A stretch of DNA of 64,000 nucleotides, taken from Methanosarcina vacuolata Z-761. GTDB lineage: Archaea > Halobacteriota > Methanosarcinia > Methanosarcinales > Methanosarcinaceae. The notes beneath the pieces were generated by a model that did no database searches, was not told the origin of the DNA, and saw only the letters and a program-made list of their open reading frames with translations. Numbering within the stretch: the first letter of the stretch is position 1; each line of letters opens with the position of its first letter. Made by a program: the position numbers and the translations under genes. The DNA lies in NCBI RefSeq assembly GCF_000969905.1, contig NZ_CP009520.1, positions 4,154,001 through 4,218,000 on the forward strand. Direction: 5' to 3'. Shown piece after piece: positions 4,645-31,215 of the stretch.

Positions 4645-6173
4645 GTAACTATTCAGGGTATAGCTAGCGGCGCTCCTTTGAGCGCCGCGAGAATACCCTC
4701 TAAAACAGGTAAACCATTCTTTCTTATTGTGGAAATATATGCTCTAATTCTGCAGAAAGCTTCCGCTCCCCGTGTAGTTCTGAAAGTTCCTGATATTTTC
4801 TGCTGTAGTTTCATCATCCTGACATCTCTTTCTGCTTGATTATTCTCAAACGGAACTTTCAAGTCTTTCAGGAATCTCAGAATCTTTTCTTTATGTTCTA
4901 TAAACCTATCAAGCAGATTCCTTGCTTTGGTTTTTGGATACATACCACGTTTTCCTTGTCTTTCAGGATTTAGAGAAGGTGGATTTTCTTCAATTCCTTT
5001 CGCGACTACAGTATCGAACCTTTTTTCTAATGCCTTAACTTGTTCAAAATCCAGATATTTGCCCTGCTCTTTGCACTCATCAGTATACTTTTTCATTTCA
5101 GATAACAGCTCATTCATATCTTTAGCCCATTGCTGTTTATAACTCTCCTCAATTCCAATAAGTTCTCTTTGGAGATGGGCATTGCAAAGAGCATGATCAC
5201 AATTATAACCGTTGTAAGGTTTCCATCCATCATGAACTGCTACCCATTTAAACTCTGGAAGAATTCCCATAGCATCAATAGCTTCTGATCCTCTTTTCGG
5301 ATGAGCAAAATAACAAGTGTATTTGTCAGTAGAAGCTACATGAAGCCCAATGTCTTTTTCCGTGAACTTTCATTCCAGTTTCATCACAATGGATAACAGG
5401 AGAAGAGAGTAACTTTTCTCGAATTACGTTTTCAAATTCTTCAAGATTCAGGAAACATTCTCTTTCTGCTTCAATAATGGTAGCAGAACTGATTTTTATC
5501 CCCATTACATCATGAAACAATTCAGAAATCCTTTTATAAGGAATGAAATGGTGATTTTTAAAGTAAATTGCTGAAGCTACGATATTAGGACCATATTGAA
5601 CTGGGGAATTTACTGATTCTGGAAATTCAGCTTTATTTAACCTTCCACAGCAAGGACAGATCTTAATCTGACTTTGATGTTCTGTAACAATAAGATTTAC
5701 AGGCGGAATATCAAAAACCTGTCTTACCTCATAAGCTTTAACTTCAACATCCTCAAGATTCTGGCCGCATTCTTCGCAACAGTTCAAAGAATGCTCTATT
5801 ACCTAATCAGGATTATCTACCATTTCGAGAGTTGTTCCTGGATGACCTTCTTGACCTCCAGGTTTCTTGCCACTCTGTTTACGGAGACTTTTTGGATTAG
5901 GTTTTCCTTTGGAAATATAGTCACTAGAAGGAGGTTTACTGCTGTTTCGGCTGTTTTGATTTAAGCGAAATTCTAAAACTTGCAATCTTTCAGTGAGGTC
6001 TTTAATTTGAGATTCAAGACTTATAATATAAGCAATAACTTCAGGGTTTGAAGCACACAAAGCAAGAATCTCTTCACGTTTCATCAAGGAAGAAAATGGT
6101 TCATTTTATATCCAATTTTTCCTCGGAACGAGGAAAAATTGTGTAGCCTTAACAAGGCTACCTGAATAGTTAC
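4645..6173 (-). mobile_element. IS66-family insertion sequence, copy 1 (1529 bp)
   Basis: The element is bounded by 13-bp perfect inverted repeats GTAACTATTCAGG / CCTGAATAGTTAC and flanked by the 8-bp duplication CCTGAATT. It carries one transposase reading frame on the minus strand. Near the promoter end are two perfect hairpins (TAGCCTT/AAGGCTA and a 13-bp stem made of CAATTTTTCCTCG and its complement). At the other end is a GC-rich hairpin (GCGGCGCT/AGCGCCGC) overlapping the last transposase codons. A nearly identical copy lies at 29690-31215 in the opposite orientation. The 3-bp length difference is fully explained by one inserted base here and two deleted bases there. Confidence 0.95.
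4653..6084 (-). pseudogene. IS66-family transposase with in-frame amber codon and a +1 frameshift
   Basis: The N-terminal part shows the IS66 leader with a coiled-coil (LESQIKDLTERLQVLEFRL), the NSRNSSKPPSSD motif and KKPGGQEGHPG. An in-frame TAG follows at 5803-5805, after VDNPD, and the same frame then continues with the zinc-finger CCEECG...CPCCG, the DDE-domain core (VIHCDETG) and on to residue about 245. One extra G near 5347 then shifts the frame. The rest, from GILPEF to the C-terminal NNQAERDVRMMKLQQKISG and GAPLAIP, is intact. The TAG is shared with copy 2 and could encode pyrrolysine; the frameshift is not shared. This copy is therefore probably inactive now. The stop codon lies inside the terminal inverted repeat. 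Confidence 0.9.
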
Positions 6174-21767: not shown

Positions 21768-22500
21768 AATCTTTCCCCTCCATATTCTAATTGCGTTTCA
21801 GCATTATGCAACTGGGCTTGAATAGGGTATGAGATAGAGTCTAAAGAGGCAAATTTTAATGTTCAGCAATTTCAGGCAACTTAAGCGCTTTAAATCAGTT
21901 AAAGAATTCAGGGCAACACAATCCTCTTTCTAAACTTATGATACTTATACATACTCTTCATTTTTTATAAGTATATTGCTAGCATATATAAGAATCCGCG
22001 TTTATACTGTTCTATTAAAAGCAATTTATCGTATATTCGGGAATTAGTATTTACTGAGATTGCGGAAATCTTACAAAATGGGACCAGAAAAAATGGAGCC
22101 AGAAAAACGAAATCTGAAAATATGAAAACCGAAGAAATACGTTTTAATTTTAACTATTCGCAACTATTCGCAACTACTCGCAACTATTCGCAAACGTATT
22201 CTGTATTTCCCTACTGCAGCTGAAGATTGAAGCTCGACTTGTGAAGTTTTAAACAGAGCTACGGCATCAAGGGTGGAAACTCCCCTTTCATAATTATTTC
22301 ATCCAAACTTATACTGGGAATGTATTTCTCGGGAGAATTATGCCTTAATTAATATATTAATAAAAACCGGAATACTAATTATGTATCTTGGAAATAAATA
22401 AAGATAGGATTTTCAATTTAATTTTTCCGGCAGAATTCATACTATTAATTTAAGCCGGTGCTAAAAGATTTATTTGCGCAGCTTTGAGGAGGACTAAAAT
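21768..22500. other. Intergenic, AT-rich, with a 10-bp tandem repeat
   Basis: No gene seen. Holds the promoter region of the kinase, four copies of AACTATTCGC (22152-22193) and the leader of the flavin reductase gene with AGGAGG at 22487-22492. Confidence 0.5.
22152..22193. repeat. 10-bp tandem repeat, four units
   Basis: AACTATTCGC is repeated four times with one substitution (AACTACTCGC). Confidence 0.85.
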
Positions 22501-23109
22501 ACGGAGATTGGAGAGAAAAGGGCTATTGGAGCCAGAAATTTTCTTTACCCTATGCCCACTACCCTTGTAGGGGCTCATGTAAACGGAAAGCCGAATTACC
22601 TGACAGTCGCTTTTTGCGGAGTCGTACAGGCAAGCCCTCCCATGATCGCGGTGACCCTTGGGAAAATTCACCATACAAATGAAGGAATAAGAGAAAACCA
22701 GTGCTTCAGTGTAAATATTCCTTCTCAGGACATGGTGGAAGTTACGGACTACTGCGGCATAGTCTCTGGAAAAAAAACGGATAAATCCGAAATTTTCGAA
22801 ACCTTCTACGGAAAACTTGAAAAAGCCCCAATGATCCGGGAATGCCCTGTAAATCTCGAGTGCAGGCTTATAGATATTCTGGATCTCAGAGGCGCAAGTG
22901 AGGTTTTCATAGGGGAGATTGTTGAAGGTTATGCAGAGGAAAAATATCTCTGTAATGAAATTCCTGATATCGAGAAGATCAAGCCTATAGTTTTTTCCAT
23001 GTATGATAATAATTACTGGGGAATAGGTGAGCACCTGGGCAAGGCCTGGTCCATCGGGAAAAATTTTGCTGAAGGCGGTAAAGAAAAAAAAGCTGAAAAC
23101 GATAGATGA
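22501..23109 (+). CDS. Flavin reductase-like (flavoredoxin) FMN-binding protein, non-AUG start
   Basis: The protein belongs to the flavin reductase-like/flavoredoxin family (FMN-binding split barrel): GARNFLYPMPTTLVGAHVNG, NYLTVAFCGVVQASPP, HHTNEGIRENQCFSVNIP and CPVNLECRL. Homologues contain the conserved stretch RAIGARNFLYP, which lies upstream of the first ATG (22552). In this frame a TAA stands just six bases before position 22501, and there is no ATG, GTG or TTG between them and 22552. AGGAGG (22487-22492) is 8 bases before an ACG, exactly where a start codon belongs. Either ACG is used, or the start was lost by an ATG-to-ACG change. The flavodoxin-like gene 290 bp on has a similar problem. 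Confidence 0.78.
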   Translation, partial: TEIGEKRAIGARNFLYPMPTTLVGAHVNGKPNYLTVAFCGVVQASPPMIAVTLGKIHHTNEGIRENQCFSVNIPSQDMVEVTDYCGIVSGKKTDKSEIFETFYGKLEKAPMIRECPVNLECRLIDILDLRGASEVFIGEIVEGYAEEKYLCNEIPDIEKIKPIVFSMYDNNYWGIGEHLGKAWSIGKNFAEGGKEKKAENDR

Positions 23110-23200
23110 TATGCTGTAGTAAAACTCCAATACGAGCGAAAGGAAAATAAATCTTATTGCAAGCGTGACCGGAAGAAATAAGTAAAAACGCATAACTGCA

Positions 23201-23310
23201 CAATTAGCCTAATAAAGGTATAGTTAGCCAAATAAATGTATAATTAGCTTAATAACTGTATAATTAGTTTAATAACTGTATAATTAGCTTAATAGCTGTA
23301 TAATTAGCCT
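23201..23310. repeat. 20-bp tandem repeat, five units
   Basis: TAATTAGCTTAATAACTGTA and variants repeat five times between the two flavoprotein genes. It is AT-rich and without dyad symmetry that would suggest a regulator site. Confidence 0.85.
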
Positions 23311-23400
23311 TTCATTAGAAAAGCTATTGGAAATATTCTGTTCAGCTCAAAGGTTTTTCAGCTCAGAGGTTATTTATTCAATGGGAAAGGGGGATTACAC

Positions 23401-24132
23401 ATAAAAATAACAGTATTCAGCGGGAGCCATAAGGGCAGGGAAGGAAACACTCTAATTCTGGTAGAGGAATTCCTGAAAGGAGCAGAAGAAGTCGGAGCAG
23501 AAACCGAAAACATTTTCCTGATCGAAAAAAGAATTGGATATTGCAGAGGAAAATTCGAGTGCTGGCTCAAAACCCCTGGAAGTTGCACAATCAGGGACGA
23601 TATGGATGATCTGCTTCCCAAATTTGTAGCTTCAGATATTGCAATATTCGCATGTCCCGTGTATTTCGATAATATTCCGGCTGTTATGAAAAACTTTATA
23701 GATAGACTTACTCCTGTGCTTGTGCCTCATTTTGAAGAAGACGAAATGGGAGAGTACAGGCACGCAAAACGCTATGAAAAGCTTCCAAAACTCGCCGTGA
23801 TATCAAACGCTGGGTTGCCGGGCCAGACTAACTTTGAGGTTGAAAGCCTTTTTTTCAAGCGGCTTGCAAGAACGTTTCACACTGAACTCGTTGCTGAAAT
23901 TTACAGAGGAGAAGGAGAAATCTTCAGGGGCAAAAACAATATCATGCTAAAACCTCTCTTGGGGAAGTATAAAAAAGCTCTCAGACGCGCAGGAAGAGAA
24001 CTTGTAGAGAACCAGACACTCTCAGAAAAAACCACAACAGAACTCGAAAAACCAATTGTACCTGAAAGCCTGTACATAAAATTCGGGAACGAAGAATGGG
24101 ACCGGCTGTGCGAAGAAAATAAGGTTGACTGA
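23401..24132 (+). CDS. NAD(P)H-dependent FMN reductase-like flavoprotein, non-AUG start
   Basis: The flavodoxin-fold protein starts with the strand and phosphate loop ITVFSGSHKGREGNT, then CRGKFECWLKTPGSC, ACPVYFDNIPAVMKNFIDR and a C-terminal helical part. The cysteine motif resembles that of iron-sulfur flavoprotein relatives (C-x-G-C-x2-C) but one Cys is Lys. The fold needs the N-terminal strand, which lies upstream of the first ATG (23602). No ATG, GTG or TTG precedes it in frame; GGGGG is followed after 7 bases by ATA at 23401, the expected start position. Around 243 residues from there. An electron-transfer or quinone/xenobiotic reductase role is likely. Confidence 0.78.
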   Translation: MKITVFSGSHKGREGNTLILVEEFLKGAEEVGAETENIFLIEKRIGYCRGKFECWLKTPGSCTIRDDMDDLLPKFVASDIAIFACPVYFDNIPAVMKNFIDRLTPVLVPHFEEDEMGEYRHAKRYEKLPKLAVISNAGLPGQTNFEVESLFFKRLARTFHTELVAEIYRGEGEIFRGKNNIMLKPLLGKYKKALRRAGRELVENQTLSEKTTTELEKPIVPESLYIKFGNEEWDRLCEENKVD

Positions 24133-24192
24133 ACAGTGCTGCAAAGATATGAAGAAATTGCAGACCTATGGATACTAAACTGGATTAAAAAC

Positions 24193-24440
24193 AAGCCTTT
24201 TCAAAAAAAGCTTGACCGCAACCCTTTTCAAAAAAGGCTTAACCGCAACCCTTTTCAAAAAAGGCTTGACCGAAAACCATGAGCCAATATTTGGGTTTGA
24301 TGAACTTATCCCCAAACCCTATCGGCGTGATCACAACCCTTTTCAAAAAAGGCTTGACCGAAAACCATGAGCCAATATTTGGGTTTGATGAACTTATCCC
24401 CAAACCCTATCGGCGTGATCAACCGGCGCAACGGTTGCGG
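24193..24440. repeat. Repeat cluster with an 88-bp direct duplication
   Basis: The motif CCTTTTCAAAAAAGGCTTGACC occurs four times. The last two are part of an 88-bp unit (24246-24333 and 24334-24420) repeated perfectly apart from its edge, including the segment GAGCCAATATTTGGGTTTGA. The units contain short stems (CCTTTT/AAAAGG, TTTGGG/CCCAAA) and stand between convergent genes, so bidirectional terminator function is possible. Confidence 0.85.
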
Positions 24441-29689: not shown

Positions 29690-31215
29690 GTAACTATTCA
29701 GGTAGCCTTGTTAAGGCTACACAATTTTTCCTCGTTCCGAGGAAAAATTGGATATAAAATGAACCATTTTCTTCCTTGATGAAACGTGAAGAGATTCTTG
29801 CTTTGTGTGCTTCAAACCCTGAAGTTATTGCTTATATTATAAGTCTTGAATCTCAAATTAAAGACCTCACTGAAAGATTGCAAGTTTTAGAATTTCGCTT
29901 AAATCAAAACAGCCGAAACAGCAGTAAACCTCCTTCTAGTGACTATATTTCCAAAGGAAAACCTAATCCAAAGAGTCTCCGTAAACAGAGTGGCAAGAAA
30001 CCTGGAGGTCAAGAAGGTCATCCCGGGACAACTCTCGAAATGGTTGATAATCCTGATTAGGTAATAGAGCATTCTTTGAACTGTTGCGAAGAATGTGGAC
30101 ATAATCTTAATAATGTTGAAGTTAAAGCTTATGAGAAAAGACAGGTTTTTGATATTCCCCCTGTAAATCTTATTGTTACAGAACATCAAAGTCAGATTAA
30201 GATCTGTCCTTGCTGTGGAAGGTTAAATAAAGCTGAATTTCCAGAATCAGTAAATTCCCCAGTTCAATATGGTCCTAATATCGTAGCTTCAGCAATTTAC
30301 TTTAAAAATCACCATTTCATTCCTTATAAAAGGATTTCTGAATTGTTTCATGATGTAATGGGATAAAATCAGTTCTGCTACCATTATTGAAGCAGAAAGA
30401 GAATGTTTCCAGAACCTTGAAGAATTTGAAAACGTAATTCGAGAAAAGTTACTCTCTTCTCCTGTTATCCATTGTGATGAAACTGGAATGAAAGTTCACG
30501 GAAAAAGACATTGGCTTCATGTAGCTTCTACTGACAAATACACTTGTTATTTTGCTCATCCGAAAAGAGGATCAGAAGCTATTGATGCTATGGGAATTCT
30601 TCCAGAGTTTAAAGGGGTAGCAGTTCATGATGGATGGAAACCTTACAACGGTTATAATTGTGATCATGCTCTTTGCAATGCTCATCTCCAAAGAGAACTT
30701 ATTGGAATTGAGGAGAGTTATAAACAGCAATGGGCTAAAGATATGAATGAGCTGTTATCTGAAATGAAAAAGTATACTGATGAGTGCAAAGAGCAGGTCA
30801 AAGATCTGGATTTTGAACAAGTTAAGGCATTAGAAAAAAGGTTCGATACTGTAGTCGCGAAAGGAATTGAAGAAAATCCACCTTCTCTAAATCCTGAAAG
30901 ACAAGGAAAACGTGGTATGTATCCAAAAACCAAAGCAAGGAATCTGCTTGATAGGTTTATAGAACATAAAGAAAAGATTCTGAGATTCCTGAAAGACTTG
31001 AAAGTTCCGTTTGAGAATAATCAAGCAGAAAGAGATGTCAGGATGATGAAACTACAGCAGAAAATATCAGGAACTTTCAGAACTACACGGGGAGCGGAAG
31101 CTTTCTGCAGAATTAGAGCATATATTTCCACAATAAGAAAGAATGGTTTACCTGTTTTAGAGGGTATTCTCGCGGCGCTCAAAGGAGCGCCGCTAGCTAT
31201 ACCCTGAATAGTTAC
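29690..31215 (+). mobile_element. IS66-family insertion sequence, copy 2 (1526 bp)
   Basis: This copy has the same 13-bp terminal inverted repeats, subterminal hairpins and content as 4645-6173, in opposite orientation. The 8-bp duplication TTTATTTC is intact, which shows direct transposition rather than recombination. It sits between purB and ramA. Correcting the two-base deletion here and the one-base insertion in copy 1 gives the same ancestral length of 1528 bp for both. Confidence 0.95.
29779..31207 (+). pseudogene. IS66-family transposase with in-frame amber codon and a -2 frameshift
   Basis: It shows the same domain order as copy 1. The frame is open from MKREEILALC to VDNPD, then TAG at 30058-30060, then open again in the same frame (CCEECGHN..., CPCCGRL) to FHDVMG, where two bases are missing near 30360 compared with copy 1 and a stop follows. 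The remainder is intact in the next frame up to GAPLAIP (including VIHCDETGMKVHGKRHWLHV). The amber codon is at the same site as in copy 1; the frameshift is not. Confidence 0.9.

Follow-up and report, generated by a model that had tools for sequence, protein, structure and literature searches.

The window, a stretch of 64,000 nucleotides from Methanosarcina vacuolata Z-761, contains two neighbouring flavoprotein genes, one encoding a flavin reductase and the other a flavodoxin-fold protein (Table 1). An earlier note on this DNA had claimed that both lack a normal start codon, with AGGAGG, 8 nt and ACG at the first gene and GGGGG, 7 nt and ATA at the second, and both arrangements were verified in the sequence. 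Its statement that neither gene has an ATG, GTG or TTG upstream in frame holds as well: at the flavin reductase gene the in-frame TAA excludes an upstream canonical start, and the 96 nt of open frame before ATA contain none. Conserved N-terminal residues do precede the first in-frame ATG, RAIGARNFLYP lying before codon 18 of the flavin reductase gene and SGSHKG before codon 68 of the flavodoxin-fold gene; initiation at codon 68 would delete the latter motif. Inspection of the sequence before codon 18 found no Shine-Dalgarno sequence. A longer antisense open reading frame (ORF) probably overlaps the flavin reductase gene.

Table 1. Features of the two genes (positions within the window)
Feature	Position	Strand	Basis or conservation
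Shine-Dalgarno AGGAGG, flavin reductase gene	22487..22492	+	sequence; GGAGG retained by most relatives in the genus
TAA in frame, two codons before ACG	22495..22497	+	sequence
Putative start codon ACG	22501..22503	+	orthologues have ATG/GTG at this position; G077, G079 and G088 share ACG (as does G096, beside GTG)
Flavin reductase (PF01613), flavoredoxin-like, 202 codons and TGA	22501..23109	+	
First ATG in frame, codon 18 of the flavin reductase gene	22552..22554	+	
Leader ORF of 7 codons (MGKGDYT), TAA overlapping the ATA	23381..23404	+	
GGGGG, Shine-Dalgarno-like, flavodoxin-fold gene	23389..23393	+	conserved across most of the genus
Putative start codon ATA	23401..23403	+	orthologues have ATG/GTG/TTG at this position; G083 shares ATA
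Flavodoxin-fold FMN_red protein (PF03358), 243 codons and TGA	23401..24132	+	
First internal ATG/GTG/TTG (ATG, codon 68), flavodoxin-fold gene	23602..23604	+	

In a Pfam profile search the flavin reductase matched PF01613 with 88.4 bits (curated cut-off 27) from residue 16 onwards. The flavodoxin-fold protein matched PF03358 with 65.8 bits (curated cut-off 24) over residues 1-104, a match which needs the N-terminus ahead of codon 68; to solved structures it showed weak matches only. The closest solved structure to the flavin reductase is the flavoredoxin 3bnk (residues 5-191, E 1.2e-59), presumably from Methanosarcina acetivorans. M. acetivorans is also named as the origin of 3bnk in a reference entry of PMC4023990. 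Genome G075, which we take to be M. acetivorans, has a closer orthologue (82%), so that 3bnk is probably a paralogue.

Several repeats surround the pair. The gap between both genes measures about 290 nt, more than, for example, in the related G077 and G102, being lengthened by AT-rich repeated units (ataattagcttaataactgt-like) at 23200-23310 of the window. Downstream of the flavodoxin-fold gene (24190-24440), aacccttttcaaaaaaggcttgaccg and a longer unit are directly repeated. The window also holds two matches to PYLIS_5, the transposase pyrrolysine insertion sequence, at 30058-30157 (+) and 5706-5805 (-), which probably mark insertion elements carrying UAG in frame. At the gene pair itself there was no Rfam match.

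Start codons among relatives and their history

In a search of 111 genomes of the family, the genome of the window (G000, 4.56 Mb) among them, 74 had a match to the first protein and 109 to the second, counting paralogues. Start codons were compared in the best 30 loci per gene, 28 of which were counted in each case. For the flavin reductase the 52% paralogue L031 was omitted from the alignment and L030 (G076, frame break) from the counts; for the flavodoxin-fold gene these were L059 (cut at a contig end) and L055 (Ns at the start), respectively. Orthologues of the second gene that fall outside the best 30 loci, e.g. those of G006, G007, G009 and G091, are not part of the comparison. The alignment of orthologues at the start codon, which the earlier note had proposed as a check, places ATG, GTG or TTG at exactly ACG 22501 and ATA 23401. 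The first gene starts with ATG in 17 loci, GTG in 5, ACG in 5 and TAT in 1, the TAT belonging to G101 with Ns at its start; the second with ATG in 19, GTG in 5, TTG in 2 and ATA in 2. Pooled over both genes and with G101 excluded, 19 of 55 readable start codons are not ATG. An excess of weak starts in the second gene is suggested by its 9 non-ATG codons in 28 loci, as compared to 19 among 128 canonical starts in a sample of G000 genes (Fisher P 0.053, the loci being related).

ACG occupies the orthologous start in G000, G077, G079 and G088 and the homologous site in G096. There, GTG lies a few codons off and ACG also stands at the usual distance from AGGAGG, and the flavin reductase of G096 may, judging from this layout, be independent of ACG. 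In G076 (L030) an ATG immediately precedes ACG and the frame breaks later in the gene. ATA occurs in two second-gene loci, G000 and G083, which sit on separate branches, the sister sequences of G083 carrying ATG. The Shine-Dalgarno sequence is retained in all ACG and ATA loci.

In a tree built from both genes G000, G077 and G079 cluster with 99% support, followed by the ATG-bearing group of G078, G100 and G102 (96%) and then by G088 with ACG (99%). This tree accommodates ACG equally briefly in two ways, by two gains or by a gain followed by a reversal. Under both histories ACG is no fresh lesion and has persisted at least since G000, G077 and G079 diverged. The ATA of G000 is younger than the split between G000 and G077, and that of G083 is a separate event. 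The earlier note had derived each codon from ATG by one transition, which stands for the ATA of G000, whose sisters carry ATG; for ACG the direction is ambiguous.

Selection, gene loss and genomic baseline

All frames of the first gene are open in G000, G077, G079 and G088, with dN/dS of 0.13-0.22 at dS of 0.22-0.39; these values are close to the 0.07-0.17 of most pairs with ATG or GTG, G080/G103 with 0.38 being the one exception. The second gene is likewise open in these four genomes and has dN/dS of 0.09-0.13. Neither relaxed selection nor a broken frame, the marks of a pseudogene, was found for either gene in this set. As regards the first gene, these values and the sharing of ACG by four genomes contradict the recent parallel inactivation put forward in the earlier note. 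It is unlikely also for the second gene, where ATA is recent but nothing else is broken and the G000 branch carries 7 synonymous and 4 nonsynonymous changes (P 0.006 against neutrality). On the G083 branch of this gene, which is open there too, the figures are 29 and 12 (P 4e-10); part of the selection on both branches may predate ATA.

Codons 2-17 of the first gene are read only if initiation precedes codon 18, so that their constraint bears on an upstream start. Within the clade of G000, G077 and G079 they carry 3 nonsynonymous changes, compared to about 15 expected without constraint (Poisson P 1.8e-4), the expectation being calculated for 37 sites, with dS in the clade taken as 0.41 (half the sum of the three pairwise values); pairwise counts over these 16 codons are too small to reveal constraint. 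Over the whole first gene, the branch to G000 has 7 synonymous and 7 nonsynonymous changes (P 0.03 against neutrality), that to G088 11 and 15, and that to G077 11 and 2. The signal of constraint is weaker on the G000 and G088 branches than on the others, which counts against a working gene.

Gene loss was seen as well. In G087 (L040) the flavin reductase gene is deleted down to a C-terminal remnant, beside an intact flavodoxin-fold gene that starts with ATG. The metagenome-assembled genome G076 has the first gene split over two frames, perhaps by a sequencing fault. Going by these two sequences, the function of the first gene is dispensable in some relatives, which suits weak expression and early decay alike.

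For a genomic baseline, 400 kb each of G000, G077, G078 and G079 yielded 136 orthologue groups under a codon-usage filter, with the start column inferred from alignment and Shine-Dalgarno sequence; this design is blind to genes with a non-canonical start in every genome compared. G000 showed 128 ATG, GTG or TTG starts, 3 gaps and 5 others. In the G000 sample, only the ACG and ATA described here combined a non-standard start with a ribosome-binding site while lacking a replacement nearby. Another ACG of G000 (sample position 321114) was rejected on inspection for its conserved upstream sequence with starts in frame 13 and 21 codons before it, as were an AAC followed directly by ATG and an ATT without downstream conservation. 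Non-canonical starts numbered 1 of 130 in G077 (the same flavin reductase ACG) and 0 of 128 in G078; the 85 starts of G079 included the flavin reductase ACG and one ACA with a start four codons on. A further 400 kb was compared for G000 and G077 alone: none of 127 starts in G000 was non-canonical, and G077 had three doubtful cases without Shine-Dalgarno sequence. The chance that two such genes adjoin is about 1.5%, judged post hoc; the adjoining ACG and ATA starts exceed chance.

Probable near-cognate initiation and its alternatives

Both genes are probably intact and translated from near-cognate ACG and AUA start codons. Each codon aligns with the starts of orthologues, lies at a normal spacing behind a Shine-Dalgarno sequence and has no canonical start nearby. 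The earlier note had offered real use of weak start codons as its other reading, and on the comparative evidence this fits better than inactivation. The Shine-Dalgarno helix, being correctly spaced, would hold the small ribosomal subunit on ACG or AUA, where the initiator Met-tRNA would pair with one mismatch and start at low efficiency. The products would be Met-EIGEKRAIGARNF... for the first gene and Met-KITVFSGSHKG... for the second. Low output may be tolerated or favoured for both proteins, because GTG, TTG, ACG and ATA replace ATG at both starts in many relatives. No unusual RNA folding was found at the starts (z 1.1 and -0.2), and nothing in these values points to a riboswitch or a structured start. 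A tRNA other than the usual initiator might conceivably serve at these codons; the genome has 55 tRNA matches, a count irrespective of anticodon.

By Ribo-seq, ATG makes up 79% of the starts of longer genes in Methanosarcina mazei, CTG is found in about 5% of unannotated small ORFs, and ACG and ATA are not among the start codons given in the accessible part of that report (PMC11456600). A review of archaeal initiation names, in the portion available, AUG, GUG and UUG (PMC7531240). Archaeal genes starting with ACG or AUA did not turn up in our literature search, which covered few subscription papers. According to the accessible text of the review PMC8211752, aIF1 of Sulfolobus solfataricus helps to discriminate against non-canonical starts, so that initiation at ACG or AUA would stay low.

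In a decay scenario, the weak or lost starts would mark the beginning of the loss of a redox pair that the cell can do without, and hardly any protein, if any, would be made. The remnant in G087 and the broken frame in G076 are consistent with such decay, as are the relatively many amino-acid changes that the first gene has accumulated towards G000 and G088 and the fact that both members of the pair are affected in one genome. We nevertheless hold decay to be unlikely: ACG is common to four genomes with open frames and dN/dS of 0.13-0.22, the N-terminal codons are constrained in the ACG clade, the Shine-Dalgarno sequences are retained, and the loss in G087 adjoins an intact second gene. Constraint on codons 2-17 also makes it improbable that the first gene is initiated internally, at the ATG of codon 18 (MPTTLVGA), to give a slightly shorter working protein. 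The beginning of the PF01613 match at residue 16 and the presence of ATG at codon 18 in all 13 genomes whose first codons were compared would agree with this, but the codon lacks a Shine-Dalgarno sequence, and internal initiation is inapplicable to the second gene with its first internal start at codon 68.

For the second gene, ribosomes ending at the TAA of the leader ORF could restart at ATA, and at such an overlap a poor start codon could work. Of 28 loci, 13 have the overlap, namely all 4 with ATA or TTG versus 9 of 24 with ATG or GTG (Fisher P 0.035, which is optimistic because the loci are related), and archaeal termination-reinitiation at overlapping stop and start codons is described in the part of PMC6728339 available. 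However, nearly every locus has AAA as codon 2, which makes TGA out of ATG and TAA out of ATA; any upstream ATG in the leader frame thus stops there automatically, and the overlap is a lead only. With a leader ORF that lacks a clear Shine-Dalgarno sequence in G083 and is missing or differently framed in many relatives, coupled reinitiation appears quite unlikely. That either codon, or both, stems from faulty sequencing or assembly is very improbable, since four different genomes agree in having ACG at this position and ATA is found in another species (G083) as well, even though each codon is one base away from ATG; an error in the ATA of G000 alone, which is known from one assembly, is conceivable. 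Finally, deamination of the mRNA might restore AUG, by C-to-U change of ACG and by A-to-I change of AUA to AUI, read as AUG. Each codon differs from ATG by exactly the transition a deaminase undoes, and as these two transitions are the sole pointer to editing, we regard it as extremely improbable. If true, an archaeon would edit start codons in its RNA the way plant plastids do.

Near-cognate initiation at this pair would have wider bearing. Gene finders commonly accept ATG, GTG and TTG only, so that genes with near-cognate starts would be truncated or called broken. A start codon of ACG retained by several species would offer a natural test of the strictness of archaeal start selection (aIF1, aIF2 and initiator tRNA), and in a genetically tractable genus it would permit testing whether weak starts set low expression.

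Among known systems, flavoredoxin 3bnk is related to the first gene by sequence match. E. coli infC and pcnB, which start with the non-canonical AUU, resemble the pair in having a near-cognate codon behind a Shine-Dalgarno sequence in a conserved gene; they differ in codon (AUU, here ACG and ATA) and in belonging to a bacterium rather than an archaeon, and we know of no autoregulation for the ACG/ATA gene pair. In plastid rpl2, psbL and ndhD the unedited start codon is ACG, likewise in conserved genes and where orthologues carry ATG, and to our knowledge mRNA editing of this kind is unknown in archaea. The AUG start of these plastid genes is made by C-to-U editing, as stated in the accessible part of PMC9845219, a change that cannot mend the ATA of the second gene. 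Termination-reinitiation in archaea, so far as PMC6728339 is accessible, resembles the second gene in that the leader stop overlaps the ATA start, and differs in that the leader here has just 7 codons and its frame is not conserved.
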